Assembly (NCBI GenBank): GCA_938016265.1
Contig: CALLWB010000130.1
Coordinates: 1-35,395 of the forward strand
Direction: 5' to 3'
Length of the DNA stretch: 35,395 nucleotides
Source: an uncultured Saprospiraceae bacterium
Lineage (GTDB): Bacteria > Bacteroidota > Bacteroidia > Chitinophagales > Saprospiraceae
Positions 23,906 to 35,247 of the stretch are shown piece after piece. The notes beneath the pieces are model-generated. The model was not told where the DNA came from. It saw only the letters and a program-made list of their open reading frames with translations, and ran no database searches. The position numbers were made by a program, and so were the translations under genes. Numbering within the stretch: position 1 is the first letter of the stretch; every line of letters begins with the position of its first letter.

Positions 23906-23977
23906 GACCCTGTAGTTCAAGGGATAGAATTGGAGTTTCCTAAACTTTAGATCCGGGTTCGAGTCCCGGCGGGGTCA
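23906..23977 (+). tRNA. tRNA-Arg (anticodon CCT)
   Basis: A full cloverleaf can be drawn: 7-bp acceptor GACCCTG/CGGGGTC (one T-G pair), D stem GTTC/GAAT, anticodon stem GGAGT/ACTTT with loop TTCCTAA (anticodon CCT), four-base variable region, T arm CCGGG-TTCGAGT-CCCGG and discriminator A at 23977. CCA is not encoded in the gene. The T arm and acceptor 3' half form one copy of the attachment repeat, so integration preserved the gene. Confidence 0.9.
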
Positions 23978-23978
23978 C
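23956..23978. repeat. attL: 23-bp direct repeat at the tRNA 3' end
   Basis: The sequence from the T loop to one base past the tRNA end (begins GGTTCGAGTCCCGG, ends GGGGTCAC) recurs exactly at 35225-35247 in the same orientation. Bases on either side differ between the copies. Confidence 0.9.
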
Positions 23979-23994
23979 AACAATTAAAAACAAT

Positions 23995-24034
23995 GTCCTG
24001 TTAATCAAATGGTTGCAGGGCGTTTTTTGTTTTT
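23995..24034 (+). terminator. Terminator-like hairpin after the tRNA, inside the element
   Basis: Stem GTCCTG (23995-24000) with CAGGGC (24016-24021), one T-G pair, then GTTTTTTGTTTTT. It would end the tRNA transcript in the integrated state, replacing the original terminator now at 35255-35298. Confidence 0.6.
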
Positions 24035-24054
24035 ACTGTCGTGGTTACTGTCGT
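24033..24054. repeat. Left arm-type direct repeats TTACTGTCGT x2
   Basis: TTACTGTCGT occurs at 24033-24042 and 24045-24054, a 12-bp period, 55 nt inside attL. The right end has the same pair with one base change (TTACTGTCAT at 35094-35103 and 35106-35115), same orientation and same period. Placement at both ends suggests integrase arm-binding sites. Confidence 0.65.
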
Positions 24055-24081
24055 TTTTTTTCGGAGGGTAGCCAATTGACT

Positions 24082-25323
24082 CTATAACTTCCCTTTGAAT
24101 GCCTGGTCTAAGATGGAGGATCTAAGAGCCTCCAAGGAATTGAGTTTTTGCTGGTATTCGGTTTTGGTTTGGTCTAGTCGCTGGAATAGGTTGTCTATTT
24201 TTTTAGTGATTCGCTTTTGCGCTGGTAGTGGTGGTAAATTTATTTCATAAGCCTCTAATGCCTTTTTGTTAACTCCGCTTTGACCTGCTGCTCGTTGAGA
24301 AATTCCAATGATATAATTTTGGATACTTGGGTTCTTTAAAAACCAAAACAGATAGTTATTATCAATCTCGTCTGTTTTAGGGGTGGCTTTCATTAATGCT
24401 ACATTGTACGCCCCTTCCAACCCTCTTAATATTTGAAATACTGGTGGGCCATATCTTCCAATCATTACATCATTTACTTTACAAAATTTCTTTGTTCGTT
24501 CTTTAGGAATGTAAACAACATATTTATTTGATTTATAATCTCGTATTTGAATTAGTCTAACATAATCTTTTTTCTGGTCTTGTGAAAAAACAGATTTAGG
24601 TGGTTGTGAACCTCCTATAAAATCGACTACACTGGTTAATTGATTTATAGCCCAGCCTTCAGGCAGTCCGTTCTTCCCTATAGCGACTCCTCCAAATAGT
24701 TGTCCCTTGAATGCCTTGTCCAAAATGGAGGCTTTGAGTGTTGGGATTGCTTCGATGTTGGTTTTTACTAGGCTTACGGCTTTGTCTATGCGCTGGAATA
24801 GGTTGTCTAGTTTTTGGGTTATTCGTTTTTGTTCTAGGAGGGGAGGGAGGGGTACATTAATTTTCGACAACGAATTTTGATTAATATTGGTTATGGTTGC
24901 TTGACTACTTCTAGCAATGAGGTTCCTTCTTAATGTTCCACACCTTAAAATATAAGTCAAAAATTCAGGGTTAAATTCAAGTTTAGGACGTCCTCGAATT
25001 ATAAACCCACAAAAGCTTATAGGTTCACTTTGTTCTTCAAAATAGCATGGCCAGCCAACCCCTTCTTTTTTTACAGAAGACCTAACGAATAGAATGTCAT
25101 TATTCTTTAAAAGATACTCCTCCTTGATTGTTTTATTTACCCTATATAATCTATCAGTAGTAACTTCCAAACCTTTGGAGTACATGTTTTTCACATCTAA
25201 AGTTAAAATCCCAACGGTATCGCCTCTTTGTTCTTTGGTAAAATTTATTCCATTTTTGAAGTCTAAAATTTCACCCAGTTTTTTTACCTCCCAACCTTTG
25301 GGCAGTTTGTTATTATCCTTCAT
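24082..25323 (-). CDS. hsdS: Type I restriction-modification specificity subunit HsdS
   Basis: 413 aa. Two target recognition domains (about 8-160 and 220-362) alternate with two conserved helical segments: PPLLEQKRITQKLDNLFQRID...FKGQL (about 160-209) and PPLPAQKRITKKIDNLFQRLD...FKGKL (about 364-413). Each TRD reads one half of a bipartite DNA target, and the helices set the spacing and bind HsdM. The start overlaps the hsdM end by 11 nt, implying translational coupling in an hsdR-hsdM-hsdS operon. The target cannot be predicted by eye. A 19-bp exact repeat encoded in both helical segments could allow recombination between halves. It is the element gene nearest attL. Confidence 0.95.
   Translation of the reverse strand: MKDNNKLPKGWEVKKLGEILDFKNGINFTKEQRGDTVGILTLDVKNMYSKGLEVTTDRLYRVNKTIKEEYLLKNNDILFVRSSVKKEGVGWPCYFEEQSEPISFCGFIIRGRPKLEFNPEFLTYILRCGTLRRNLIARSSQATITNINQNSLSKINVPLPPLLEQKRITQKLDNLFQRIDKAVSLVKTNIEAIPTLKASILDKAFKGQLFGGVAIGKNGLPEGWAINQLTSVVDFIGGSQPPKSVFSQDQKKDYVRLIQIRDYKSNKYVVYIPKERTKKFCKVNDVMIGRYGPPVFQILRGLEGAYNVALMKATPKTDEIDNNYLFWFLKNPSIQNYIIGISQRAAGQSGVNKKALEAYEINLPPLPAQKRITKKIDNLFQRLDQTKTEYQQKLNSLEALRSSILDQAFKGKL
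24179..24809. repeat. 19-bp direct repeat inside hsdS
   Basis: CGCTGGAATAGGTTGTCTA occurs at 24179-24197 and 24791-24809, encoding the DNLFQR part of the two conserved helices. The flanks are also similar. Such repeats are known substrates for TRD exchange in type I systems; no silent hsdS fragment is seen nearby. Confidence 0.7.
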
Positions 25324-26761
25324 TCAAAATACTTTCTACCTCGTTCATTAATTGGTTTATAGTCACGTCATTCTCTTTAATCGCGCCCAAAATTTTTCCT
25401 GGCTCCTGGTGGATAATCTCTACTTGTTTTGCTGGATTTTTTGCGGATAAATCGAAGTCCTCAATATCTGTCACCTTAACCAGCCAGGACTTATCTGTGA
25501 CTGTTCGTTTGTGGTATAGTTCAACAAACTCCTTTAGGTGGTCCGAGTTGATTGGTTTGTTTTTAGTGAGCTTGTAAGGTGGCTCTACTTCGTAATACCA
25601 AATATCTGAAGTGCCTCCGGTGCGCTCAAAAAAGATGATGTTGGTTTTTACTCCGCTATAAGGCAAGAATACGCCAGCGGGCAAACTTACTATGGTATGT
25701 AAATTGAAGTGCTCCAGTAGCTCCTCCTTTAGCTCCTTGAATGCGTTGTTGGTTTGGAATAAAACGCCTTCAGGTACTACGATTGCAGCCTTACCTCCAG
25801 TACGTAACATCTTCATAAAATGCTGCATAAATAGCAACTCTGTTGCATTGCTTTTGATCGGGAAGTTCTGTTGTATCTCGCTTTTTTCCTTCCCACCAAA
25901 GGGAGGATTTGCTAGTATAATGTTGTGTCTGTTACCCTCCTGAAAATCTCGGATATTCTCCGTAAGGGTATTTATTTTGGCAATGTTCGGACTTTCCATG
26001 CCATGCAGTATCATGTTCATCATTCCCATAATGTATGCCAGTGGTGTCTTTTCGTTTCCAAAAAAAGTGTGGTATTGCAGTTGCTCAATATCTCCGGTCT
26101 TTTTGATTTTCTTCTGTAGGTACTTAAATGCCTGAATTAAAAAACCTCCTGTACCTACTGCACCATCATAAACGGTCTCTCCTATCTCTGGAGCGACTAC
26201 TTGAACCATTGCCTCTATTACGGCTCTAGGTGTGTAGAACTCGCCAGAATTGCCTCCGTCAGCTCCCATGCCTTTTAGGAGCTTCTCGTAGATGTTGGAT
26301 AGTTCTAGTTTATCGGTATCAAAATTTAACTCATTAACAATATCCAATACTTCGCGCATTGTGGACCCATTTGCTATCCGGTTGTCTAGGTACTCAAATA
26401 TCCCTTTGATCTTGTTTTTGAGTGCATAGGGGTTGGTATCACTAAATCCTTTGAGGTATGGGAACAACTCCCCATTTACAAAATTTTTAAGATCATCGGA
26501 GGTCAATGCTTTTTTGTGGTCCAGTTTCCCGTTTTCATCTTTGGGACATGCCCAGGTATTCCAGCGGAACCGCTCATCTATGATGTAGGTGTATTCTTTG
26601 CCGTCCAGGAATGCCTCATCTTCTTTTTGTTTCTCGAGGCTGTCTAGGTAGCGTAAAAACAAAATCCAGCTTATCTGCTCGGTATAGTGCATCGCTCCAC
26701 TGATACCATCGTCACGTCTTAGGATGTCGGTTATTCGGTCTATTTTCTGTTGTAGGGACAT
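25313..26761 (-). CDS. hsdM: Type I restriction-modification methyltransferase HsdM
   Basis: 482 aa. An N-terminal helical HsdM domain (about 5-135, TEQISWILFLRYLDSLE) is followed by an N6-adenine methyltransferase domain. The SAM-binding motif is at about 199-207 (DGAVGTGGF, with DG instead of the usual DP), and the catalytic N-P-P-F motif is at 285-288 (ILANPPFGG). The conserved GEFYTPRAV stretch is at about 173-181. With HsdS it methylates adenine in the host target; with HsdR it forms the restriction complex. The hsdR stop is separated by 42 nt and the hsdS start overlaps, supporting one operon. Confidence 0.95.
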   Translation of the reverse strand: MSLQQKIDRITDILRRDDGISGAMHYTEQISWILFLRYLDSLEKQKEDEAFLDGKEYTYIIDERFRWNTWACPKDENGKLDHKKALTSDDLKNFVNGELFPYLKGFSDTNPYALKNKIKGIFEYLDNRIANGSTMREVLDIVNELNFDTDKLELSNIYEKLLKGMGADGGNSGEFYTPRAVIEAMVQVVAPEIGETVYDGAVGTGGFLIQAFKYLQKKIKKTGDIEQLQYHTFFGNEKTPLAYIMGMMNMILHGMESPNIAKINTLTENIRDFQEGNRHNIILANPPFGGKEKSEIQQNFPIKSNATELLFMQHFMKMLRTGGKAAIVVPEGVLFQTNNAFKELKEELLEHFNLHTIVSLPAGVFLPYSGVKTNIIFFERTGGTSDIWYYEVEPPYKLTKNKPINSDHLKEFVELYHKRTVTDKSWLVKVTDIEDFDLSAKNPAKQVEIIHQEPGKILGAIKENDVTINQLMNEVESILNEG

Positions 26762-26803
26762 AAAGTATTTTGGTAGATAAAATTTGATTAAAAAAACGGG
26801 TAA

Positions 26804-29125
26804 TTAGGAAACTTTGTACAATTCACGCTGCAAATTTAAGAATGCATCTACTATTTTCTGATTGCCTCCAAATCCGGCTATTACTTCTCTTTGTGTTGCA
26901 CTCTTATTTAGTTTCATCAATTCAGTTAGGTTGTCGCGGTTTAGTTCTTTGATGCCGTCCGCCTCGTATCGTTCGAGTAGGAATTTTAAAAAGTGTTGAG
27001 CTTTGAGATTGCTGTAGACTTTAAAAAACTGCTCGTTGTCTTTGACTTTGGCAGCGCGCAATTTACGAGTTAAAATCTCTTTACTATGGGAAATGTGATT
27101 TAAAATATCAAATACATCGCTATTGGGAGATTCAAACATCCCTTTAAAATCCTGGAGCTGTTGGTCTCCTATGCCAATGCTTTTAAGGTGCTCCAGTAGC
27201 TCTAGTCTAGTATTAGGGTCTGACCAAATATCTCGAAGTTGTTGCTCGTTTTTGTACAAGGATGGTAAGTGGCCTATTAGCTCGGTTAGCAGTTGACTTG
27301 CTGTTACTGGTTTACCGTCTGCATTGAGGTATTTAATTTGAATGTCTTCTACTCTCAAAACACGGTCTTTGGGTAATCGAATTTCTATTTTTTCTCTTGG
27401 TGGTGGTTCGTCAATTGGTTGCTCTGTATCTCCGGTGTCGGTTTCTCCTCCTATTATTTCCGGTTCAGTTCCTTCCTCCAGATTGACTGTGATTTTTGTT
27501 TCTTCCTCTGGTGGTCCGTCCCAGTCATTATCTTCGAATAGTACAGTTGCTCCGGTAAAATCAATAATAGTAAAGTAGTCCTTATTGTCAAATAAGCGAG
27601 TACCTCGGCCAATGATTTGTTTAAACTCGGTCATTGAATTTATAGTACGAGCTAGGACGATATTACGAACGTTTCGCGCATCTACTCCGGTTGTCAGCAT
27701 TTGGGAGGAGGTCACAATGGTAGGAATGTCTCTATCATTGTTTTGAAACTGTTCTAAATACTTCCTTCCTACTTTTTTCTCATCGCTGGTAATTCGTACA
27801 CAATAATCAGGGTCTTTATTGTTTTTGTGCTTATTTATGAAGTCTCGAAGGTTTGCTGCATGGGGTTGGTCGACACAAAAGACAATCGTTTTATCTAGTG
27901 GTCGGATATTCGTCAAGATGGTACGGGCAATTAAATCTAGGCGCTCTGGTAGGTAAATAGTCCTATTAAAGTCTTTAATGGTGTATGTTTTGTCCTCGTC
28001 AATTTCTCCTCTTACTACATCCTCATGATAGGAGTATTTGAACTCATCAATATTGGTCGTAATACGCATAACCTTATAGGGAGTCAAGAACCCATCGTTT
28101 ATACCTTCCTTTAGTGAATACTCATATACAGGATCTCCAAAATAATTGTAGGTATCAACATTGTCCTGTCGTTTTGGTGTTGCGGTAAGTCCTAGGTGTA
28201 TTGCACTCCCGAAGTGGTCCAGTATTTCGCGCCAGCTTCCCTCCTCGTTTGCGCTTCCTCGGTGGCATTCATCAATTACAACCAAGTCGAAAAAGTCAGT
28301 AGGATAGTCTCTAAAATAGCCGTCCTCGGTTTCTCGCTCGGAGTCACTCACCGCCTGGTAAATAGCAAAGTAAATACTAAAGTTAGTTGGTACTTTTCCT
28401 CCAGCTTTTCGAATTTCTGCACCTGTTATTTTGGTTAGTTCTTTTTCTAGTGGATTGAATGTATTTATTGCCTGGTCAACTAAGATATTTCTATCTGCCA
28501 GGAATAACACCTTAGGCCGTCTATGTGCCCCGTCAACATTCCAACGGGCCTGGAATAGTTTGTAAATGATTTGGAAGGAAATGAACGTCTTTCCTGTTCC
28601 TGTTGCCAGTGCTAGCAATACCCTTTTTTTATGGTCTGTAATTGCCTCAACTGCCTTGTTAATTGCCAGCTCTTGATAAAAGCGAGGAGTCATTCCTTCC
28701 CTTGTCAAAAATCCAGTTTCGAAAACTTTATCTCTTATTTCGTTGGGTTGGTGGATACGGTTGTATAGTTCCTCTGGTGTTGGATAGGTTTCAATATATT
28801 GGCCTGTTCCATTAAGCATATCAAACTCGTATATTTTGAGCCCATTGCTAGAATACGCGAATTGTAGTTTTAGTTTCTTAGCGTAATTTTTAGCTTGTTC
28901 TAGTCCGCTGGTAGGGTGGAGGTCTCGCTTTTTTGCTTCTAGTACTGCGAGTGTTTTGTTCTTGTAAATGAGTCGGTAATCTGGTATTAACTGCTCGCCT
29001 CGTTTGCCTCCTCCTATTTTCTTCCCATCAGTAAAAGACTTTTCACGAATTATCATTTCTCCGGTCCAGCCAGCATCTTTTAATTGAGGGTCGATATAAT
29101 TTGCTCGAGTATCAGCTTCAGTCAT
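26804..29125 (-). CDS. hsdR: Type I restriction endonuclease/translocase HsdR
   Basis: 773 aa. The N-terminal PD-(D/E)xK nuclease shows Asp49 (LIPDYRL) and Glu63-Ala-Lys65 (LAVLEAKKRD). The SF2 translocase motor has Walker A at about 174-180 (ATGTGKT), DECH at 285-288, TATPKR at about 314, and a late IIGRGTRLFD motif. A C-terminal EcoEI-like HsdR domain (to about 770, AGFGGNQKIVDAFLNLQ) points to a type IB-like enzyme. The protein pumps DNA past unmodified sites and cuts on collision. All motifs are intact. It is first in the hsdRMS operon, with its promoter in 29126-29289. Confidence 0.95.
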   Translation of the reverse strand: MTEADTRANYIDPQLKDAGWTGEMIIREKSFTDGKKIGGGKRGEQLIPDYRLIYKNKTLAVLEAKKRDLHPTSGLEQAKNYAKKLKLQFAYSSNGLKIYEFDMLNGTGQYIETYPTPEELYNRIHQPNEIRDKVFETGFLTREGMTPRFYQELAINKAVEAITDHKKRVLLALATGTGKTFISFQIIYKLFQARWNVDGAHRRPKVLFLADRNILVDQAINTFNPLEKELTKITGAEIRKAGGKVPTNFSIYFAIYQAVSDSERETEDGYFRDYPTDFFDLVVIDECHRGSANEEGSWREILDHFGSAIHLGLTATPKRQDNVDTYNYFGDPVYEYSLKEGINDGFLTPYKVMRITTNIDEFKYSYHEDVVRGEIDEDKTYTIKDFNRTIYLPERLDLIARTILTNIRPLDKTIVFCVDQPHAANLRDFINKHKNNKDPDYCVRITSDEKKVGRKYLEQFQNNDRDIPTIVTSSQMLTTGVDARNVRNIVLARTINSMTEFKQIIGRGTRLFDNKDYFTIIDFTGATVLFEDNDWDGPPEEETKITVNLEEGTEPEIIGGETDTGDTEQPIDEPPPREKIEIRLPKDRVLRVEDIQIKYLNADGKPVTASQLLTELIGHLPSLYKNEQQLRDIWSDPNTRLELLEHLKSIGIGDQQLQDFKGMFESPNSDVFDILNHISHSKEILTRKLRAAKVKDNEQFFKVYSNLKAQHFLKFLLERYEADGIKELNRDNLTELMKLNKSATQREVIAGFGGNQKIVDAFLNLQRELYKVS

Positions 29126-29289
29126 AACGTTACGGGTTATTTTTGGGGTGTCACAGTTTTGCTAAGTTAGTGAATGAAATACAAATATTCAATTTTTGAC
29201 TTTATGTGTTTTTCTCGCAGCTCTCCGCAGCTTTTTCGATTTTATCCGATAAATATTAGTCTGTCATATTCCCAAAGGAACAGAAACAA

Positions 29290-29526
29290 CTACCGTACAA
29301 ATCGAATTTCGATAGTGTAAACTTTGCCGTCTTTAGCCTCTACTTTCAATAAACCAAGTTCCTTTGCTTCTTTAGATAGTCGGGCTAAGGTCCAATAAGA
29401 AGGAAACACACCATCATCCTCGCGCATATCTGCACACAACTTTTTCAAGTTCGTCCAGACATCTATGATTTTATCATCTAGGATCAATATGTAGACACGT
29501 CTGATTTGCACCATGATCGCAAACAT
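29290..29526 (-). CDS. Small hypothetical protein, possible winged-helix-like
   Basis: 78 aa from the ATG at 29526; an ATG at 29514 is equally possible, and the longer frame starts at a TTG. The sequence ends SYWTLARLSKEAKELGLLKVEAKDGKVYTIEIRFVR, where a helix is followed by a beta hairpin, as in a winged helix, but no family is recognised. It lies divergently from the plus-strand operon at 29620 and 164 nt upstream of hsdR. A regulatory role for one of these neighbours is a guess. Confidence 0.45.
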   Translation of the reverse strand: MFAIMVQIRRVYILILDDKIIDVWTNLKKLCADMREDDGVFPSYWTLARLSKEAKELGLLKVEAKDGKVYTIEIRFVR

Positions 29527-29619
29527 AAGGCAAATAGTTTTATTCAGAATTTGAAAATACAATCAATGCCTCTATATTTGTATTTGTTGAAAACTTTTTT
29601 CTACTAAATACCAAATCAA

Positions 29620-30036
29620 ATGGATTCCTTACTCAATGAGCATTCAAAATTTGTAGTCAGACAATACCGAAAGGTAACCAACGACTATTTAAGCAGCGTC
29701 ACCGCAATAAATAACCAACTGTATGAAAGTATCAAGGCAATCCTATCCAGTCCCCATAGCTACGAGCCAAGCAAGCCACAAGAGGAACTACAAGCAGCTA
29801 TTCAAAAAATTATTGATTTGGTTGACCTTACTGACAATCTGCCTGTTTTCCGTATCAGTAGCCTATCCGATTTGATAGATGAGGAAAAAACTAACCTCTA
29901 CCCGTTCCACCATTTGACCAACGCAGCACGGGAGCAACTTGCAGAACTTTGCCAAATAGCAAACGGGATGCACCAAGCAACTGACAACTATATCAATACA
30001 ACATTATTCGAGCTATTAAAAAGCTGGGAGAAATAA
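29620..30036 (+). CDS. Hypothetical protein, all-helical
   Basis: 138 aa, acidic and apparently all alpha-helical, with no signal peptide or membrane segment and no motif I recognise. It starts about 94 nt from the divergent small gene and is the first of three plus-strand genes (31 and 40 nt gaps) that end with the terminase-small-subunit-like gene, so it is probably expressed with it. Function unknown. Confidence 0.6.
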   Translation: MDSLLNEHSKFVVRQYRKVTNDYLSSVTAINNQLYESIKAILSSPHSYEPSKPQEELQAAIQKIIDLVDLTDNLPVFRISSLSDLIDEEKTNLYPFHHLTNAAREQLAELCQIANGMHQATDNYINTTLFELLKSWEK

Positions 30037-30067
30037 CAATTTAACTAGCAAATCAAAAAAATAATAA

Positions 30068-30733
30068 ATGGGACGTTATACAACGGGAGCCTGTAGCACA
30101 AAGGAGTGTATGCGATTAAATATTTCAGATCTCAAAAGGAGTGGATTCTTTAGACCTGGATGCGAAGTAAGTGGTTCTTATCATTGGACCCGAGGAGATA
30201 GGCCGTCAGGAAGCATTAAAATTCATTCCTACAATCTAGGACAAACGAGGTACATCATATTGTCTTACGGTATTTCTCGCCATGGGAAAACTGTAAAAAT
30301 TGAGGATAGAATAGATATAGAATCTATACCGTCAAATCTAGGTATTGGGGAGGTATTGTTTTTTAAATGCCCTAGTACAAATAGACGATGCAAAACGCTC
30401 TATACTCGTAATGGTTTTGACTACTTCAGGAGCCGTCAGTACTTTGGTAACAACATTTTTTATGAAGTTCAGATGGTCGCAAAACGAGACATTCACAATA
30501 CGAACTATTGGAACCTGAAACGAGGCAAAGAACTAAAAGAGCTGATCGAGAAACAAAATACAAAAAATTCAAAGTGGAGGTACAACGGGGAACAAACCAA
30601 ATGGTTCAAGCGACTTCAAAAGTTGAACAAGCGACTCAATTATTTAGATGATGCACGCTGGATGGAATGTTTTGCATTCCTAGAAAACATGGGAGCTTAT
30701 AACGAGCTTATGGAAAATAACCTAAATCCCTAG
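30068..30733 (+). CDS. Hypothetical protein with Cys-pair motif
   Basis: 221 aa, basic, no signal peptide. It contains ACSTKEC near the start and FFKCPSTNRRCKTLY at about residues 98-112, a C-P-x-x-x-R-R-C-x-x-L-Y pattern that I associate with small proteins of unknown function on plasmids and islands. The C-terminal part is helical and rich in Lys/Trp. A nucleic-acid-binding role is possible. It is the middle gene of the three-gene operon. Confidence 0.6.
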   Translation: MGRYTTGACSTKECMRLNISDLKRSGFFRPGCEVSGSYHWTRGDRPSGSIKIHSYNLGQTRYIILSYGISRHGKTVKIEDRIDIESIPSNLGIGEVLFFKCPSTNRRCKTLYTRNGFDYFRSRQYFGNNIFYEVQMVAKRDIHNTNYWNLKRGKELKELIEKQNTKNSKWRYNGEQTKWFKRLQKLNKRLNYLDDARWMECFAFLENMGAYNELMENNLNP

Positions 30734-30773
30734 AAGAACACAAGGTATTTGTACTGGAAAAACTTGGAATAAG

Positions 30774-31229
30774 ATGAAAGCAAGACATCAATTATTTGCT
30801 CTGGAGTATCTGAAGGACTTAAACGGCAAACAGGCTGCTATAAGAGCCGGATACAGTCCTCATACGGCAAAGGAGCAAGCGGTACGGCTTTTAGGTGTCC
30901 AAGCTATCCAGGAGGCAATTTGTAAAGCAAAGGAGGACCGTAACTATCGACTAAACATTTCAAATGATATGGTAGTGAATGAGTTAATCAAAATTGGATT
31001 TTCCAACATTGCGGACTTTATAGAACGTTTTGACGGCTCCACCTTTCAATTGAAAAATAGTGAAGACATTGCACCGGAAGCTCTTGCTGCTATTAAACGG
31101 CTGGAAGTTTCTAAGGACGGTCTTATTAGAATAACCCTACACGACAAAATAAGCGCGTTGTTGAAGCTTTATGAGCATACGGCGACACAATACCCAAAGA
31201 AGAAAAGAATCGTTTATAGGAGGGCTTAA
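30774..31229 (+). CDS. Phage terminase small subunit-like protein
   Basis: 151 aa. Residues 4-56 (HQLFALEYLKDLNGKQAAIRAGYSPHTAKEQAVRLLG) match the N-terminal HTH pattern of Terminase_2-type small subunits: F-x-x-E-Y-L-x-D-x-N-x-x-Q-A-A-I-R-A-G-Y-S. A middle helix pair (ISNDMVVNELIKIGFSN) and LHDKISALLKLYEH near residue 125 also fit the family. Small terminases recognise the packaging start site on phage DNA and pair with a large ATPase subunit, which is absent here. In the island context, this lone gene may redirect a helper phage's packaging, as in some staphylococcal pathogenicity islands. That role is inferred. Confidence 0.75.
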   Translation: MKARHQLFALEYLKDLNGKQAAIRAGYSPHTAKEQAVRLLGVQAIQEAICKAKEDRNYRLNISNDMVVNELIKIGFSNIADFIERFDGSTFQLKNSEDIAPEALAAIKRLEVSKDGLIRITLHDKISALLKLYEHTATQYPKKKRIVYRRA

Positions 31230-31333
31230 TTGGTGTTAACTTTTGTTATCCTTATTGAGATATTGATAGACCAACAATTCCCAATTTTGTCCCCTACTGA
31301 AAAATTCAAATCAGGGCCTACTACAACCTCAAC

Positions 31334-31365
31334 AAGCCCCTTACAAGGCCCTAGTAAGCCCCTAA
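31334..31365. repeat. Three 11-bp-spaced imperfect direct repeats
   Basis: AAGCCCCTTA (31334), AAGGCCCTAG (31345) and AAGCCCCTAA (31356) repeat with an 11-bp period next to the 3' end of the polymerase-like gene. GGCCTACT at 31315-31322 can also pair with AGTAAGCC at 31353-31360 with one mismatch. They could be iteron-like binding sites or part of a convergent terminator. Confidence 0.35.
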
Positions 31366-31366
31366 A

Positions 31367-33067
31367 TTATTCGATGTGCAATTGATATTCGTCTATACCA
31401 ATTTGCCTATCTAGTATGGAGCGAACAACTCCCTCAACCCTATTCAAATCCATTTCACGACATAGGATAGAATCGTGTTTACTAAATACGGTGTATCCCT
31501 GCTCCAGTAAAGTATTAAGAATAGTATCAATAAACAGATGGCTCTCTATCAGTTGCAGTTCTATTGCAAACTGATTATCTCCGAACTCTTTTTTAAATTC
31601 GTCTATTAGATAAATCACGAACGGGAACAACTCCTTTAGTTTATTTTTGGAGCTGGTATAGTTTTTATGTTTGGAAAAGAATATTTCGAACATGATCCGC
31701 TTTGCTTCCTTTCTTCCTTGGTCTCCAAGAGACAAATATAAATTGTCTTGGATGTACTCGTATAGTTGCCCACTTTTTGCAAGTTCTACAAAACGAGACA
31801 GACCTTCTGTAAAATCAGTACTTCCAGCGTTTTTTAATACGTATTGCTGGGTACTTTTTACGCACATATAAGCTAGTCGGTTTGTTCCTTCATTGCTTTC
31901 TAAGTCAATTTGTGTCCGTTGAGTGGAAGACTCACTAGTAAAATTCTCTTGAATTTCTATGTTCTTGTCTACATTTCCTCCCTTTCCTTTGTATTTATTA
32001 ATATAAACCCTATCCAGGTGAAAAATGCGGCTGACACATTTTGATTTTTCTAAATCGTTTAGTTTTAGAGGCTTCAATAGGTACTTTTCAAGCTTCCAAG
32101 CCAATATAAGGAACTGTGAATTTTTCAAGTCGATGTTTACTAAATGCTGACCATCAATTTTGAAGAACGAAAGTAGTATACCTGGCATGTTGGTCAAGTT
32201 GGTATCAAGTCTCAAATTAGAACTATTTCGGTTCGCTCTTACTTGCTTGTTGTATAGCAGTCGAGCGGACCTGTAGTAATTGCAAAATATATGCTGTCGC
32301 TTTAGGCGGAGGTACTTGGTTTTATCCTGAAGGTAGAACTTTCTTTTGTCTTGAATTAATGTGAGTCCTTCGCTTGCTGCTATTTTTCGCGCTGTTCTAA
32401 TTGAACATTCACACTTTAAGCTCCTACTTCCTCCTTTGAAGCTAGGGAAGTGCTTGTCTCTTATTTCGAAGCTGGGGAGCCTTAAAGTAAAATAAGTCTC
32501 TGTTATCTGATCGTCAAATTTAAGATGGTGTACAGCTTCCTCACTAGCAGCATAGTCGTTTATATAACTACGTACCTCTTTAATCGGAACTCTTAAATTC
32601 TTTAGTAGGGAGCGCGTTTTTTTCTGGATTGGTTCGTTTTGCTGATCCTTGTAAACCTTAGCCTCATAGGAGACCGTTTTGAAGTTATCGTCTATTAGCT
32701 CAAGATTTAGATGGTACGACTTACATTCGTGGTTATAGGTGGTGTAATAGTCGTCTGTTTGAATAATCCCTAACTCTTGAATGATCCTCCAGGACTTGAT
32801 GTAATTCTCTCCGAATGTCTTTTTTAATAAGGAGCAAGGTATCTGCTTTGGTTCGTCAAACAGCAAGCCTTCTTTTGCGTACATACTGAATAAGGTATTT
32901 ACCATACTTCGACATTTACCTTTTGTTCTAGGATCTTCAGCAATAGAACAAAGTAGGGTGTCAATCTTTATAGGGAGAACGGACATTAACTTCTCTTTAG
33001 AGCCTTTAGTTACTGTTTGTTTCCTCCGCTTATTACTATCTTTAAAGGTCGCCTTTGCACCTTTCAT
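31367..33067 (-). CDS. Divergent family-A DNA-polymerase-like replication protein
   Basis: 566 aa. The C-terminal half carries an ordered series resembling polymerase A palm motifs. First RLDTNLTNMP (286-295), like the R...NLQNIP stretch before motif A. Then motif A VNIDLKNSQFLILAW (310-324; Asp313). Then a motif-B-like GRKEAKRIMFEIFFS (451-465; Arg452, Lys456). Then a motif-C-like FSKHDSILC (528-536; His531, Asp532), preceded by a helix with LQLIESHLF. The spacing fits the fold. No 3'-5' exonuclease domain is seen. The N-terminal half is basic, with a possible winged helix near 80-120. Motif A as D-x-x-N-S-Q recalls TV-Pol-like relatives more than bacterial Pol I. It probably replicates the element. 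Alternative: an inactive homolog or primase-like initiator. Confidence 0.6.
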   Translation of the reverse strand: MKGAKATFKDSNKRRKQTVTKGSKEKLMSVLPIKIDTLLCSIAEDPRTKGKCRSMVNTLFSMYAKEGLLFDEPKQIPCSLLKKTFGENYIKSWRIIQELGIIQTDDYYTTYNHECKSYHLNLELIDDNFKTVSYEAKVYKDQQNEPIQKKTRSLLKNLRVPIKEVRSYINDYAASEEAVHHLKFDDQITETYFTLRLPSFEIRDKHFPSFKGGSRSLKCECSIRTARKIAASEGLTLIQDKRKFYLQDKTKYLRLKRQHIFCNYYRSARLLYNKQVRANRNSSNLRLDTNLTNMPGILLSFFKIDGQHLVNIDLKNSQFLILAWKLEKYLLKPLKLNDLEKSKCVSRIFHLDRVYINKYKGKGGNVDKNIEIQENFTSESSTQRTQIDLESNEGTNRLAYMCVKSTQQYVLKNAGSTDFTEGLSRFVELAKSGQLYEYIQDNLYLSLGDQGRKEAKRIMFEIFFSKHKNYTSSKNKLKELFPFVIYLIDEFKKEFGDNQFAIELQLIESHLFIDTILNTLLEQGYTVFSKHDSILCREMDLNRVEGVVRSILDRQIGIDEYQLHIE

Positions 33068-33099
33068 AATTGCATTATTTCTCCATTAGAGCAACACTT

Positions 33100-33117
33100 T
33101 AACTAAAATTTTAGTTA
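33100..33117. promoter_or_regulatory. 18-bp perfect palindrome upstream of the polymerase-like gene
   Basis: TAACTAAAATTTTAGTTA is a perfect dyad, 33 nt upstream of the polymerase-like start codon, where a promoter would lie. It may be a repressor operator or an origin element. Confidence 0.5.
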
Positions 33118-33151
33118 TATTTACCCTTGGTATTAGTAAATAAAATTAAGG

Positions 33152-33229
33152 GCCTACTGGACAAAGAGTAGGCATAGACATTTCAAATCCTGCCAGGTAA
33201 AAAAATAGCCTTTTGAATATCTGGCAGGA
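33152..33229. other. Candidate replication origin: clustered inverted repeats
   Basis: The 174-nt gap between the small HTH gene and the polymerase-like gene has two more inverted repeats besides the 18-bp palindrome: GCCTACT/AGTAGGC (33152-33158 and 33167-33173, 8-nt loop) and TCCTGCCAG/CTGGCAGGA (33188-33196 and 33221-33229, loop with an A7 run). Their density next to a replication gene suggests an origin; a terminator for the HTH gene is the alternative for the second. Confidence 0.4.
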
Positions 33230-33241
33230 ATAAAATGTTTC

Positions 33242-33526
33242 TTACTGTGAACCGAATTTCTTAACTGACTTTAAAGCCTCCATAAGTTCCTCCTCTTTAT
33301 ACCGTACACTTCTGCCAATCTTGTAGGCTTTCAATTTACCTTTTTTGGTATAGGTATTTAATGTTGGCAGGGAAATACTAAGTATCTCCGCTGCTTCTTT
33401 CCTGGTTAGTAACTTCGTTTCTTCACTTTTGCTTTCACTCGTTTGACTGTTACTAATGGCCCGAGTGACCGCTTCTTCAATTGCTTCTTTTAAGTTGAAG
33501 CCATTTATTCTTAAATCTAAATTCAT
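33242..33526 (-). CDS. AlpA/MerR-like small HTH protein, probable excisionase or regulator
   Basis: 94 aa. Residues 35-90 form an HTH_17-type (excisionase/AlpA-like) domain: KLLTRKEAAEILSISLPTLNTYTKKGKLKAYKIGRSVRYKEEELMEALKS, a MerR-like helix-turn-helix with a short wing. The N-terminal 34 residues are polar and Ser-rich. Such proteins sit beside integrases on Bacteroidota islands and either bend DNA for excision or control the excision genes. It lies between the integrase (205 nt upstream) and the polymerase-like gene, all on the minus strand, with 11-bp direct repeats in the upstream gap. Confidence 0.75.
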   Translation of the reverse strand: MNLDLRINGFNLKEAIEEAVTRAISNSQTSESKSEETKLLTRKEAAEILSISLPTLNTYTKKGKLKAYKIGRSVRYKEEELMEALKSVKKFGSQ

Positions 33527-33679
33527 GGATCTTGATTAAGGTGTTTACGGGCTTCATTTGGTATGGTTTATTTTATTACTTCAATATACGTACTTTTATC
33601 AAGTTTTACAATCTCATTCGGATTATTTACTAACAATTTGTTTCATTTTCTGTTAATAACAACTAAATCTTTCGTTTAT

Positions 33680-33701
33680 CGTATTACTTTCGTATTACTT
33701 T
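33680..33701. repeat. Tandem 11-bp repeats upstream of the small HTH gene
   Basis: CGTATTACTTT occurs twice back to back (33680-33690 and 33691-33701), between the integrase stop and the HTH gene start. A weaker copy (ACGTACTTTT) lies near 33588. The 11-bp period fits adjacent binding on one DNA face, so it is a candidate autoregulatory or Xis site. ATATAC-AAT-GTATAT follows at about 33705-33719. Confidence 0.45.
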
Positions 33702-33731
33702 TGATATACAATGTATATACATATTATATTT

Positions 33732-35015
33732 TTACTTAACGGCAGCCATAGGAACCTCATTGAAAAACAAATGCGTTGAATTAATACGGGCATTATCTTC
33801 TTCACTGATTTTGATGTATTTCATAAATGCTTTTTCGGTCTTGTGACCTGTTATTTTCATAATAGAAATAGTTGGGACCCCAGCCAAAAACGCATTAGTA
33901 GCAAAGGAACGTCTGGCAGTATGTGTAGAAATCAATTCATATTTTTTCTTGGATACCTCTATCCGTTTACCTCCTTTAGATTTGGCCTTGAGAACCCTCT
34001 CCGTTAATCCTGCTATCTGTCCCAGCTCCTTAAGGTACTCATTCATTTTCTGGTTTGAGATGCTCCTAGGGATCACATAACCCTTACCTAATGAATGTTT
34101 TTCAAATATTGCTTTAACATGTGGAGTTAAAGGTACTTCTACTGTCGCTCCAGTCTTATTGGTAAATACTCTTAATACTCGATATGGTCGGCCGTCATTG
34201 TCCCTACGCTCTAAGATGTTATCGTTCGTGAGTCTGGAAAAATCTCCAAACCTAAGCCCCGTATAACAGCCAACTATGAACAAGTCTCTTACGTTGTCCA
34301 GCCTTGAAAACTTCTCTAGTTGCAAATTGTAGATTAATCCTAATTCGTCCACATTCAAATAGATTGCAGTGGTTTCTTCACTTGGTTTCTTGAATAACTT
34401 ACCTCTAAACTTTAGGTTGGTGTTAATTCCTTTTTCAGTTGCAACACCCAGGAAGGTCTTGATATGCTTGATATGGTCTCCAGCGGTATTTAGACCAAAC
34501 ATATTAGGAGCCTCGTAAAGGTAGTCAAGGTAATCGTGGTAAAACTCTAAATCTATGTCCTCAAAATCTAAGGTTCGATTTCTGGATTTTGCATATTTTT
34601 TCAAGTGGTTAAATATCTTCCTGTGGCTTTTGATGGTTGATACTGCTCGTTTGCCTTTGATCTCAACAAGGTAAGACTCAATAAATTCAAAGAGCGTCAA
34701 CTTCTGAACTTCCTTAGCTCGGTTGTTGTAAATATCTAGTTTCTCCCTCAATTGTTTTGGGGTTGGAATGATTCCTTTAGTCTTGTACTCCAAATAGTAC
34801 TCATCCACCTTATTCGATAAGGTCTTGAGGTGCTGGTTTAAGAATGCATAATTCTCGTAGGACTGCCTTACCTCCCTTTTGTTATCGTTCCAATCCTTCG
34901 TTTTGATTTTCTGTTGACTGGAGTATCTTACTCGCTTCCCATGATATGCGAATGACATCATTATGTAGGTGTAGTCTTTTTCAGGTTTGTCGAGGTAAAA
35001 TTTTGCTTTAGGCAT
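33732..35015 (-). CDS. int: Tyrosine site-specific recombinase (integrase) of the island
   Basis: 427 aa. An N-terminal arm-type DNA-binding domain (about 1-95, AKFYLDKPEKDYTYIMMSF) is followed by a SAM-like core-binding domain (about 105-205) and the catalytic domain (about 215-405). Active-site residues are visible: Arg255 (YTGLRFGDF), Lys287 (TNKTGA), His365 and Arg368 (THTARRS), His391 (ITGH) and nucleophile Tyr400 (FMKYIK). This is the layout of Bacteroidota conjugative- and mobilisable-element integrases. The gene is transcribed inward from attR, 209 nt away. The arm-type domain fits the paired direct repeats near both element ends. It should catalyse integration into, and with a helper excision from, the tRNA-Arg gene. 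Confidence 0.95.
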   Translation of the reverse strand: MPKAKFYLDKPEKDYTYIMMSFAYHGKRVRYSSQQKIKTKDWNDNKREVRQSYENYAFLNQHLKTLSNKVDEYYLEYKTKGIIPTPKQLREKLDIYNNRAKEVQKLTLFEFIESYLVEIKGKRAVSTIKSHRKIFNHLKKYAKSRNRTLDFEDIDLEFYHDYLDYLYEAPNMFGLNTAGDHIKHIKTFLGVATEKGINTNLKFRGKLFKKPSEETTAIYLNVDELGLIYNLQLEKFSRLDNVRDLFIVGCYTGLRFGDFSRLTNDNILERRDNDGRPYRVLRVFTNKTGATVEVPLTPHVKAIFEKHSLGKGYVIPRSISNQKMNEYLKELGQIAGLTERVLKAKSKGGKRIEVSKKKYELISTHTARRSFATNAFLAGVPTISIMKITGHKTEKAFMKYIKISEEDNARINSTHLFFNEVPMAAVK

Positions 35016-35049
35016 AGCTATAATTTTGTAAGTAATTTGAGAACACTTC

Positions 35050-35064
35050 GAGGAGCTGCTCCTC
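35050..35064. repeat. 15-nt near-perfect palindrome upstream of int
   Basis: GAGGAGC-T-GCTCCTC, 7-bp arms around one base, lies 35 nt upstream of the int start codon. It could be an operator or accessory protein site for the recombination complex. Confidence 0.4.
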
Positions 35065-35091
35065 TACCTACAAGATACAAAACCTTTAGCT

Positions 35092-35115
35092 ATTTACTGT
35101 CATATTTACTGTCAT
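35092..35115. repeat. Right arm-type tandem repeats ATTTACTGTCAT x2
   Basis: The 12-mer ATTTACTGTCAT is directly repeated (35092-35103 and 35104-35115) between int and attR. It is the counterpart of the left-end pair at 24033-24054 (G to A at one position). Probable integrase arm sites. Confidence 0.65.
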
Positions 35116-35224
35116 AATTTTTTAATTCATCCTTTCGAGTAGTAAAGTATTTTTATCTAAAACCTCTGTTTATATTGAATTATGAATGAAAACAAGATAA
35201 AAGCAGAACAAAGGAGAAATAAAA

Positions 35225-35247
35225 GGTTCGAGTCCCGGCGGGGTCAC
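35225..35247. repeat. attR: 23-bp direct repeat of the tRNA-Arg 3' end
   Basis: Exact copy of 23956-23978 in the same orientation. Only the T-loop-to-end part of the tRNA is present here, so it is not a second tRNA. It marks the right boundary of the island. Confidence 0.9.

Follow-up and report, generated by a model that had tools for sequence, protein, structure and literature searches.

A candidate phage satellite with a lone small terminase gene, a polymerase-like protein and a restriction-modification cargo at a tRNA-Arg gene of a Saprospiraceae bacterium

Phage satellites shape the conflict between phages and their hosts. Phage-inducible chromosomal islands (PICIs), which include the Staphylococcus aureus pathogenicity islands (SaPIs), are islands of about 10 kb that carry an integrase, an AlpA-type regulator, a replication gene, sometimes a lone gene for the small terminase subunit (terS) and cargo of benefit to the host, and that have no structural genes. 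In the available part of PMC10803314 the mean size of PICIs is given as 9.5 kb and they are placed in many Firmicutes and Gammaproteobacteria; the same part describes a search model for the minimalist satellites of Vibrionaceae (phage-inducible chromosomal minimalist islands, PICMIs) that consists of an integrase, PF12728 or AlpA, a DUF3987/DUF5906 primase and fis, and names type I restriction-modification (R-M) among known PICMI cargo. Tycheposons and virion-encapsidated integrative mobile elements (VEIMEs), both from marine bacteria, are named as proposed satellite families in the available part of PMC11389934, and the satellites in the available parts of both sources come from phyla other than Bacteroidota. 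No description of phage satellites in Bacteroidota was found in the open-access literature, as covered by titles and the starts of abstracts among the matches listed, most subscription journals lying outside this scope. In this paper we describe an integrated island of 11.3 kb, at positions 23956-35247 of a 35,395-nucleotide stretch (contig CALLWB010000130.1 of assembly GCA_938016265.1, hereafter the window), which lies inside a tRNA-Arg(CCT) gene of a Bacteroidota host, an uncultured Saprospiraceae bacterium.

On balance we think it probable that the island is a phage satellite that would use its TerS protein to divert the packaging of a helper phage. This is the best supported of the readings we weighed, on account of the exact ends, the arm-type sites, the open frames, the lone Terminase_2 gene and a layout that recurs in Bacteroidota; its main rival is a defense island that moves by another route. 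Both ends are marked by an exact 23-bp direct repeat, GGTTCGAGTCCCGGCGGGGTCAC, and the longest repeat in 60 shuffles of the target stretch was 13 bp, which bears out the precise ends in tRNA-Arg claimed in the original prediction, made from the letters of the sequence and a list of its open reading frames (ORFs). Just inside both ends lie pairs of TTACTGTCRT with 12-bp spacing, at 24033/24045 and 35094/35106. These are the only 4 matches in the whole window, a number reached in 0 of 100 shuffles, and their paired layout is as expected for arm-type sites of the island integrase, a likely assignment that also fits the Arm-DNA-bind_5 domain of that protein.

Counted from the tRNA gene, the island carries hsdS, hsdM, hsdR and o90, then o138, o221 and terS, and lastly the polymerase-like, HTH_17 and integrase genes (Table 1). 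The middle group is on the + strand, and the polymerase-like gene, on the - strand, is convergent with terS. TerS is a genuine Terminase_2 protein, with a full-length match far above the curated cut-off (99.0 against 26.1 bits). The integrase, helix-turn-helix (HTH), terS-like and hsdRMS genes proposed from the sequence are each backed by Pfam or NCBIfam matches. The HTH protein had been called AlpA-like; it matches PF12728 (HTH_17) and TIGR01764, and does not match Pfam Phage_AlpA. With HsdR above the NF046051 cut-off and HsdM and HsdS beside it, the R-M system belongs to the EcoAI/FtnUII family of type I. Large terminase, capsid, relaxase and conjugation families were matched by none of the 10 island proteins and no tail pieces were recognized among them (Pfam and NCBIfam, with PHROGs for 7 of the 10), in agreement with the predicted lack of capsid, large terminase and conjugation genes. 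An integrative and conjugative or mobilizable element (ICE or IME) is not indicated, 0 of 10 island proteins matching relaxase or conjugation families in Pfam and NCBIfam, a search that an oriT-only element would escape. The window thus holds attachment (att) repeats with an integrase, an AlpA/excisionase-type regulator, and terS without its own large terminase gene or structural genes, as in PICIs; the PICI-like anatomy that had been proposed is confirmed, and is strengthened by the recurrence of lone-terS integrase islands across the phylum.

Table 1. Features of the island and its target gene (positions in the window)
Feature	Position	Strand	Evidence
tRNA-Arg, anticodon CCT, integration target	23906..23978	+	ARAGORN; Rfam RF00005 58.3 bits
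att repeat copy 1 = 3' end of tRNA gene	23956..23978	+	exact 23-bp repeat
tandem pair TTACTGTCGT, likely integrase arm-type sites	24033..24054	+	motif search with shuffles
hsdS, type I specificity subunit	24082..25323	-	PF01420 4.1e-29; PADLOC Specificity_I
hsdM, type I methyltransferase	25313..26761	-	PF02384 2.5e-61, PF12161; PADLOC MTase_I 1.9e-165
hsdR, EcoAI/FtnUII-type restriction subunit	26804..29125	-	NF046051 881 bits, cut-off 550
o90, small protein without assigned function	29290..29562	-	46% identity to C8 island homologue
o138, start of likely terS operon	29620..30036	+	ORF; no convincing family match (Pfam, PHROGs, NCBIfam)
o221, no function assigned	30068..30733	+	homologue adjoins tRNA in G863 island, 35% over 142 columns
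terS, Terminase_2 small subunit	30774..31229	+	PF03592 4.9e-28, 99.0 bits, cut-off 26.1; phrog_51 2.2e-24
566-amino-acid family-A-like polymerase/replication protein (plausible)	31367..33067	-	conserved residues; profile-profile comparison with PolA
HTH_17, AlpA/excisionase-type protein	33242..33526	-	PF12728 6.4e-14; TIGR01764 'excise' 1.1e-11
tyrosine integrase, frame intact	33732..35015	-	PF00589 2e-8, PF13102 2.7e-13, PF17293 2e-7
tandem pair TTACTGTCAT, likely integrase arm-type sites	35094..35115	+	motif search with shuffles
att repeat copy 2	35225..35247	+	exact 23-bp repeat

Terminase_2 was found in 11 genomes of a phylum sample and 8 of a class sample (395 genomes each, overlapping), and the 16 distinct matches from these, with 3 from another search, make up 19 loci. 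In six of them (G124, G103, G249, G201, G340, G650) the large terminase subunit (TerL) is encoded no more than 1.2 kb away and no integrase was found up to 6 kb away; these are read as phages. Ten have a full-length tyrosine integrase 2.5-5.8 kb away and no TerL detected in the stretch examined, which extends downstream of terS for 4.2 kb in the window, 2.9 kb in a second locus of the same genome (C8), 266 bp in G409:C218 and at least 7.4 kb in the other seven (G273, G356, G223, G374, G378, G863, G533). The remaining three are not classed: two, G824 and G597, are close to contig ends, and the third, G409:C50, combines a 201-amino-acid integrase beside terS with a long ORF read as a tape measure. 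An integrase lies within 6 kb in 11 of 13 TerL-less loci versus 0 of 6 TerL-bearing ones (Fisher p=0.001, the integrase queries including nine loci's own). For these 9 of the 19 loci the top matches are therefore self-matches; the integrases of G273, G356, G223, G374, G863, G409 and G533 also match that of the window or C8, and that of G374 also matches Pfam. As far as the sequences tell, Bacteroidota have the lone-terS, integrase-bearing layout repeatedly, in combination with other replication modules and at several loci in tRNA or mnmE sites.

Outside this set the lone state is unusual, since of 145 loci of TerS relatives 132 have TerL at most 6 kb away (70/75 on viral contigs and 62/70 in other genomes), these being loci selected by similarity to the window and related TerS proteins. 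There were 160 such loci, of which 15 with less than 2.5 kb downstream were excluded; the 80 viral ones come without host assignment, and the genome loci, the best 80 of 532 confirmed relatives, include none from Bacteroidota by title and one from Ignavibacteriales and so serve as an outside comparison only. ORFs that follow terS in 43 of the first 46 viral loci served as TerL seeds, and two or more of these seeds are not TerL; five unlinked seeds and the self-matches were removed before the count, which had stood at 133. In Rhodoblastus (CP059255.1) and Nitrospirales, TerS relatives with no TerL detected within 6 kb are possible lone-terS elements.

Three of the other nine islands are bounded by repeats in tRNA genes: G273 (46-bp repeat, tRNA-Asn, 7.6 kb), G533 (16-bp repeat, tRNA-Arg(ACG), 7.6 kb) and G863 (15-bp repeat, tRNA-Arg(CCT), 14.4 kb), the G863 repeat being within the shuffle range (longest 16 bp in 60 shuffles) but coinciding exactly with the end of the tRNA gene. 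Site pairs with 11-12-bp spacing and sequences of their own (no shuffle control) are present at both ends in G533 and G863 too, one G863 copy deviating at its last base. The search for att sites in G356, G223 and G374 gave no repeat of at least 13 bp, and in G378 a 15-bp repeat is of doubtful meaning. The G863 island, which occupies the same kind of tRNA gene as the window island, has a related integrase (38% identity), HTH protein (36%) and o221 (35%), and differs in carrying DUF3987, a DUF6371 protein of the C8 type (7e-96 with the C8 protein) and, as cargo, a type III R-M system. The second lone-terS island of the window's own genome (G000:C8, 1-10650) adjoins mnmE at its 3' end (Pfam MnmE_helical and TrmE_N), a site that the G409 island shares by likeness; it encodes an integrase, HTH_17, DUF3987, DUF6371, two DUF5681-type proteins (one below cut-off), terS, an o90 homologue, hsdM and a partial hsdS that runs off the contig end. 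Its terS is the closest to that of the window (41% in the alignment, sister with support 100/94). A third member of the o90 family, in G399:C25 (L148:4238-4474), has no terS homologue found in the 18 kb examined, so o90 is not tied to terS; the ORFs near it are presumably YhcG/DUF1016-like. On viral contigs, 36 pattern matches for o90 gave 0 confirmed.

The modules beside the integrase and terS differ from island to island. DUF6371, which we read as primase-like, is also present in G374, G378 and G409; DUF3987 is found in C8, G863 and G378, AAA_25 in G356, G374 and G409, and a DnaB-like gene in G223. The comparison of cargo that had been proposed gave type I R-M in the window and C8, type III R-M in G863 and, as likely cargo, a DrmD-like helicase in G223. 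In this last island (L056:4942-9455) the helicase (PADLOC 6.4e-110) and a 492-amino-acid neighbor are possible defense cargo. We suggest tentatively, at somewhat less than an even chance, that Bacteroidota hold a widespread unrecognized guild of satellites in which an integrase, a lone Terminase_2 and often defense cargo recur and the replication module is freely exchanged, the modules being DUF3987, DUF6371, AAA_25, DnaB-like and a family-A-like polymerase shared with ParA plasmids. If the islands are satellites, a major phylum has phage parasites of its own, some of which carry restriction systems, and how many lone-terS islands there are relative to phages can be put to a direct test.

The polymerase-like protein of 566 amino acids is a member of an undescribed family. 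PHROG, NCBIfam and the PDB sequences gave no match to it and Pfam gave two, both sub-threshold and to unrelated families; the polymerase profile likewise matched none of the PDB sequences at E up to 10. In 13 aligned sequences, that of the window included, R286, D313, N316, K456, D532 and S533 never vary, R452 and H531 hardly ever, and in their order these residues recall what we take to be motifs A (DxxNSQ), B (RxxxK) and C (HDS) of family-A polymerases. When the C-terminal part of a 19-sequence profile was compared by hhalign with a PolA profile (20 Bacteroidota rows plus T7 gp5, 3 of the 21 rows being short fragments), motifs B and C were aligned over 118 columns (E=0.0036, probability 9%) and motif A was left unaligned; at full length the values were E=0.0051 and 7%, in global mode the probabilities were 51% and 29%, and reversed controls gave E=0.15-0.17. 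The family-A likeness that had been predicted is plausible at the level of motifs; PF00476 itself is matched in Pfam by 0 of 13 family members. T7 RNA polymerase, a further candidate, was set aside, its match spanning 26 columns and being confined to motif C (E=0.046).

Relatives of this protein are found in 12 of 395 phylum genomes and, by profile, in 7 of 148 relatives, the window's own genome included in both counts. The closest ones found lie on contigs that bear ParA. One of these contigs (G435:C7, 31,458 bases), apparently circular as judged from a 105-bp terminal overlap, encodes a relative 28% identical over 508 aligned columns, and no known Rep family was matched in the 10 scanned of its 24 ORFs of at least 80 amino acids; it also carries an MmeI-type R-M enzyme, a resolvase and a Ribosomal_L23-domain protein (Pfam 1.2e-25). 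A Hymenobacter plasmid carries a relative together with an annotated replication initiation protein. Among the 12 phylum genomes Terminase_2 occurs only in the window's genome and in G249, where the pair is almost 3 Mb apart, and none was detected beside the other polymerase relatives fetched, on other islands or plasmid-like contigs. The block of integrase, HTH, polymerase and terS that had been proposed as a search target elsewhere in Bacteroidota was accordingly not found again, and the polymerase and terS are separate modules that are combined in the window island. On viral contigs 11 pattern matches for the polymerase gave 0 confirmed, and in annotated phages its matches were weak and partial, 4 in number, in records of uncultured phages 635-735 kb long (E 1e-3 to 9e-3). 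The protein may be an undescribed replication protein common to plasmids and integrated islands.

Several details of this family may be recorded here. A relative of 686 amino acids at L021:9523-11583 has a long C-terminal extension, and NUMOD1 and GIY-YIG are each matched by one of the 13 family members, a combination suggestive of a fusion with a homing-endonuclease-like part. On either side of the polymerase gene of the window, at 31302-31322 and 33138-33158, stand similar 21-bp sequences that include GGGCCTACT; the window has two copies of this 9-mer in all, a number attained in 0 of 100 shuffles, and the flanking sequences are possible candidates for replication or regulatory sites.

If the island is a satellite, its cycle might run as follows. 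Infection by a helper phage, or its induction, would trigger excision by the integrase and the HTH_17 protein, as their families and the structure of the ends suggest, and the island would then be replicated by its own polymerase-like protein. Island TerS would join the large terminase of the helper, so that island DNA would be packaged into helper particles, a step modeled on PICIs and on the recurrence of lone terS. HsdRMS, to judge by its family, would protect the host against other phages, and a cargo that guards the host would guard the island as well.

A number of observations weigh against this reading. No genes for capsid remodeling, capsid size or interference were recognized in the island, and no helper phage was identified. 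In the window's own genome no TerL was found by a 43-row profile, PF03354 or PF03237; this is weak evidence, as neither the 43-row profile nor PF03237 picks up the TerL of G650, and the helper may come from outside or belong to a family that escapes these searches. On the other hand, TerL was matched elsewhere in the genomes of other island hosts, three times in G863, once in G356 and once in G374. An empty site was sought with the right flank in 8 related genomes, where only the tRNA end (25 bp) matched, in 1. The G409:C218 contig stops 266 bp past terS, so that an adjacent TerL was judged only by whole-genome searches, and the terS of the G863 island is broken. The island genes are scattered over the TerS tree, with 5 label changes, a number as low being reached by shuffles in 161 of 500. 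The tree holds 17 Bacteroidota rows (G378 and G863 not among them), 27 of 80 viral and 40 of 80 genome loci, with the unclassed G824, G597 and G409:C50 labeled as phage; its bootstrap had not settled and most forks are weak, and at least two label changes are forced by well-supported branches. The idea of a single satellite TerS clade was not supported by it. The islands are thus not one inherited family by their TerS, and terS was probably recruited more than once.

The alternative that survives best, which we hold to be unlikely, is an integrative defense island that is mobilized in trans or by an unrecognized route (ICE conjugation, natural transformation or generalized transduction), with TerS a relic or a protein of another DNA-binding role. 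The G863 island retains its integrase and R-M cargo despite the broken terS, so at least one such island persists without terS, and the occurrence of polymerase relatives where no neighboring Terminase_2 was detected, on islands and plasmid-like contigs, points the same way. A relic, however, would not be expected to keep a terS frame without internal stop in 9 of 10 integrase-bearing islands (the match to the family model being partial in G374 and G378). Nor was a mobilization gene recognized in the island proteins scanned, which are part of the total; it had been held that homologous elements always carrying conjugation or mobilization genes would speak against a satellite, and over this part that did not come true.

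That the island is instead a decayed prophage, which lost its structural genes and kept the integrase, terS and early genes, is improbable. Prophage decay is common, and the phage homologues of terS adjoin TerL. Against it stand the exact ends with their arm sites, the open frames, the lack of any recognized piece of capsid, tail or TerL in the window island, the same compact repeat-bounded layout of 7.6 kb in two other islands and a second island of like layout in the same genome; a close relative without phage genes at the same site in an independent host is partly seen in G863. Least credible of all is a Terminase_2 protein that serves as a replication or copy-control factor and has no packaging role, for although terS closely follows the DUF6371 gene in C8 (two DUF5681-type genes between), G374 (one ORF between) and G409 (directly), the full-length match of the window protein is well above the cut-off, and terS is constant while the replication modules vary among islands. 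The original prediction had also named a terS-like family of non-packaging regulators as a finding that would speak against a satellite; the protein is a genuine Terminase_2, most of its relatives counted above lie near TerL, and its packaging role is putative.

We therefore return to the satellite reading and to the systems that the island most resembles. Tycheposons and VEIMEs are tRNA-targeting tyrosine recombinase elements with variable cargo, and their hosts and gene sets, as generally described, differ from those of the window island. With PICIs the island has in common the integrase, the AlpA-type regulator, the size, the lone terS, the host-benefit cargo and the lack of recognized structural genes; unlike them it is in Bacteroidota, has a putative replication gene of an undescribed polymerase-like family and no recognized genes for capsid size or interference. 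It shares with PICMIs the integrase, the PF12728 HTH protein, the small size and the type I R-M cargo, and the PICMI marker DUF3987 is present in the sister islands C8, G863 and G378. The window island has no DUF3987/DUF5906 or Fis match, its target is a tRNA gene and not fis, and it has terS, which is not part of the four-gene PICMI search model, in so far as the available part of the source describes these satellites. Its R-M system is an ordinary EcoAI/FtnUII-type system in which hsdR, hsdM and hsdS all match, unusual only in its location in a lone-terS island. The polymerase-like protein recalls family-A DNA polymerases (PF00476, T7 gp5) in conserved residues that follow the order of motifs A, B and C; it differs from them in matching no PF00476, PDB, PHROG or NCBIfam entry, in the motif A left unaligned by the profile comparison and in an N-terminal half to which no family is assigned. 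Taken together, the island is a variant of the known layouts whose putative replication module is undescribed, and we found no described satellite for its phylum.

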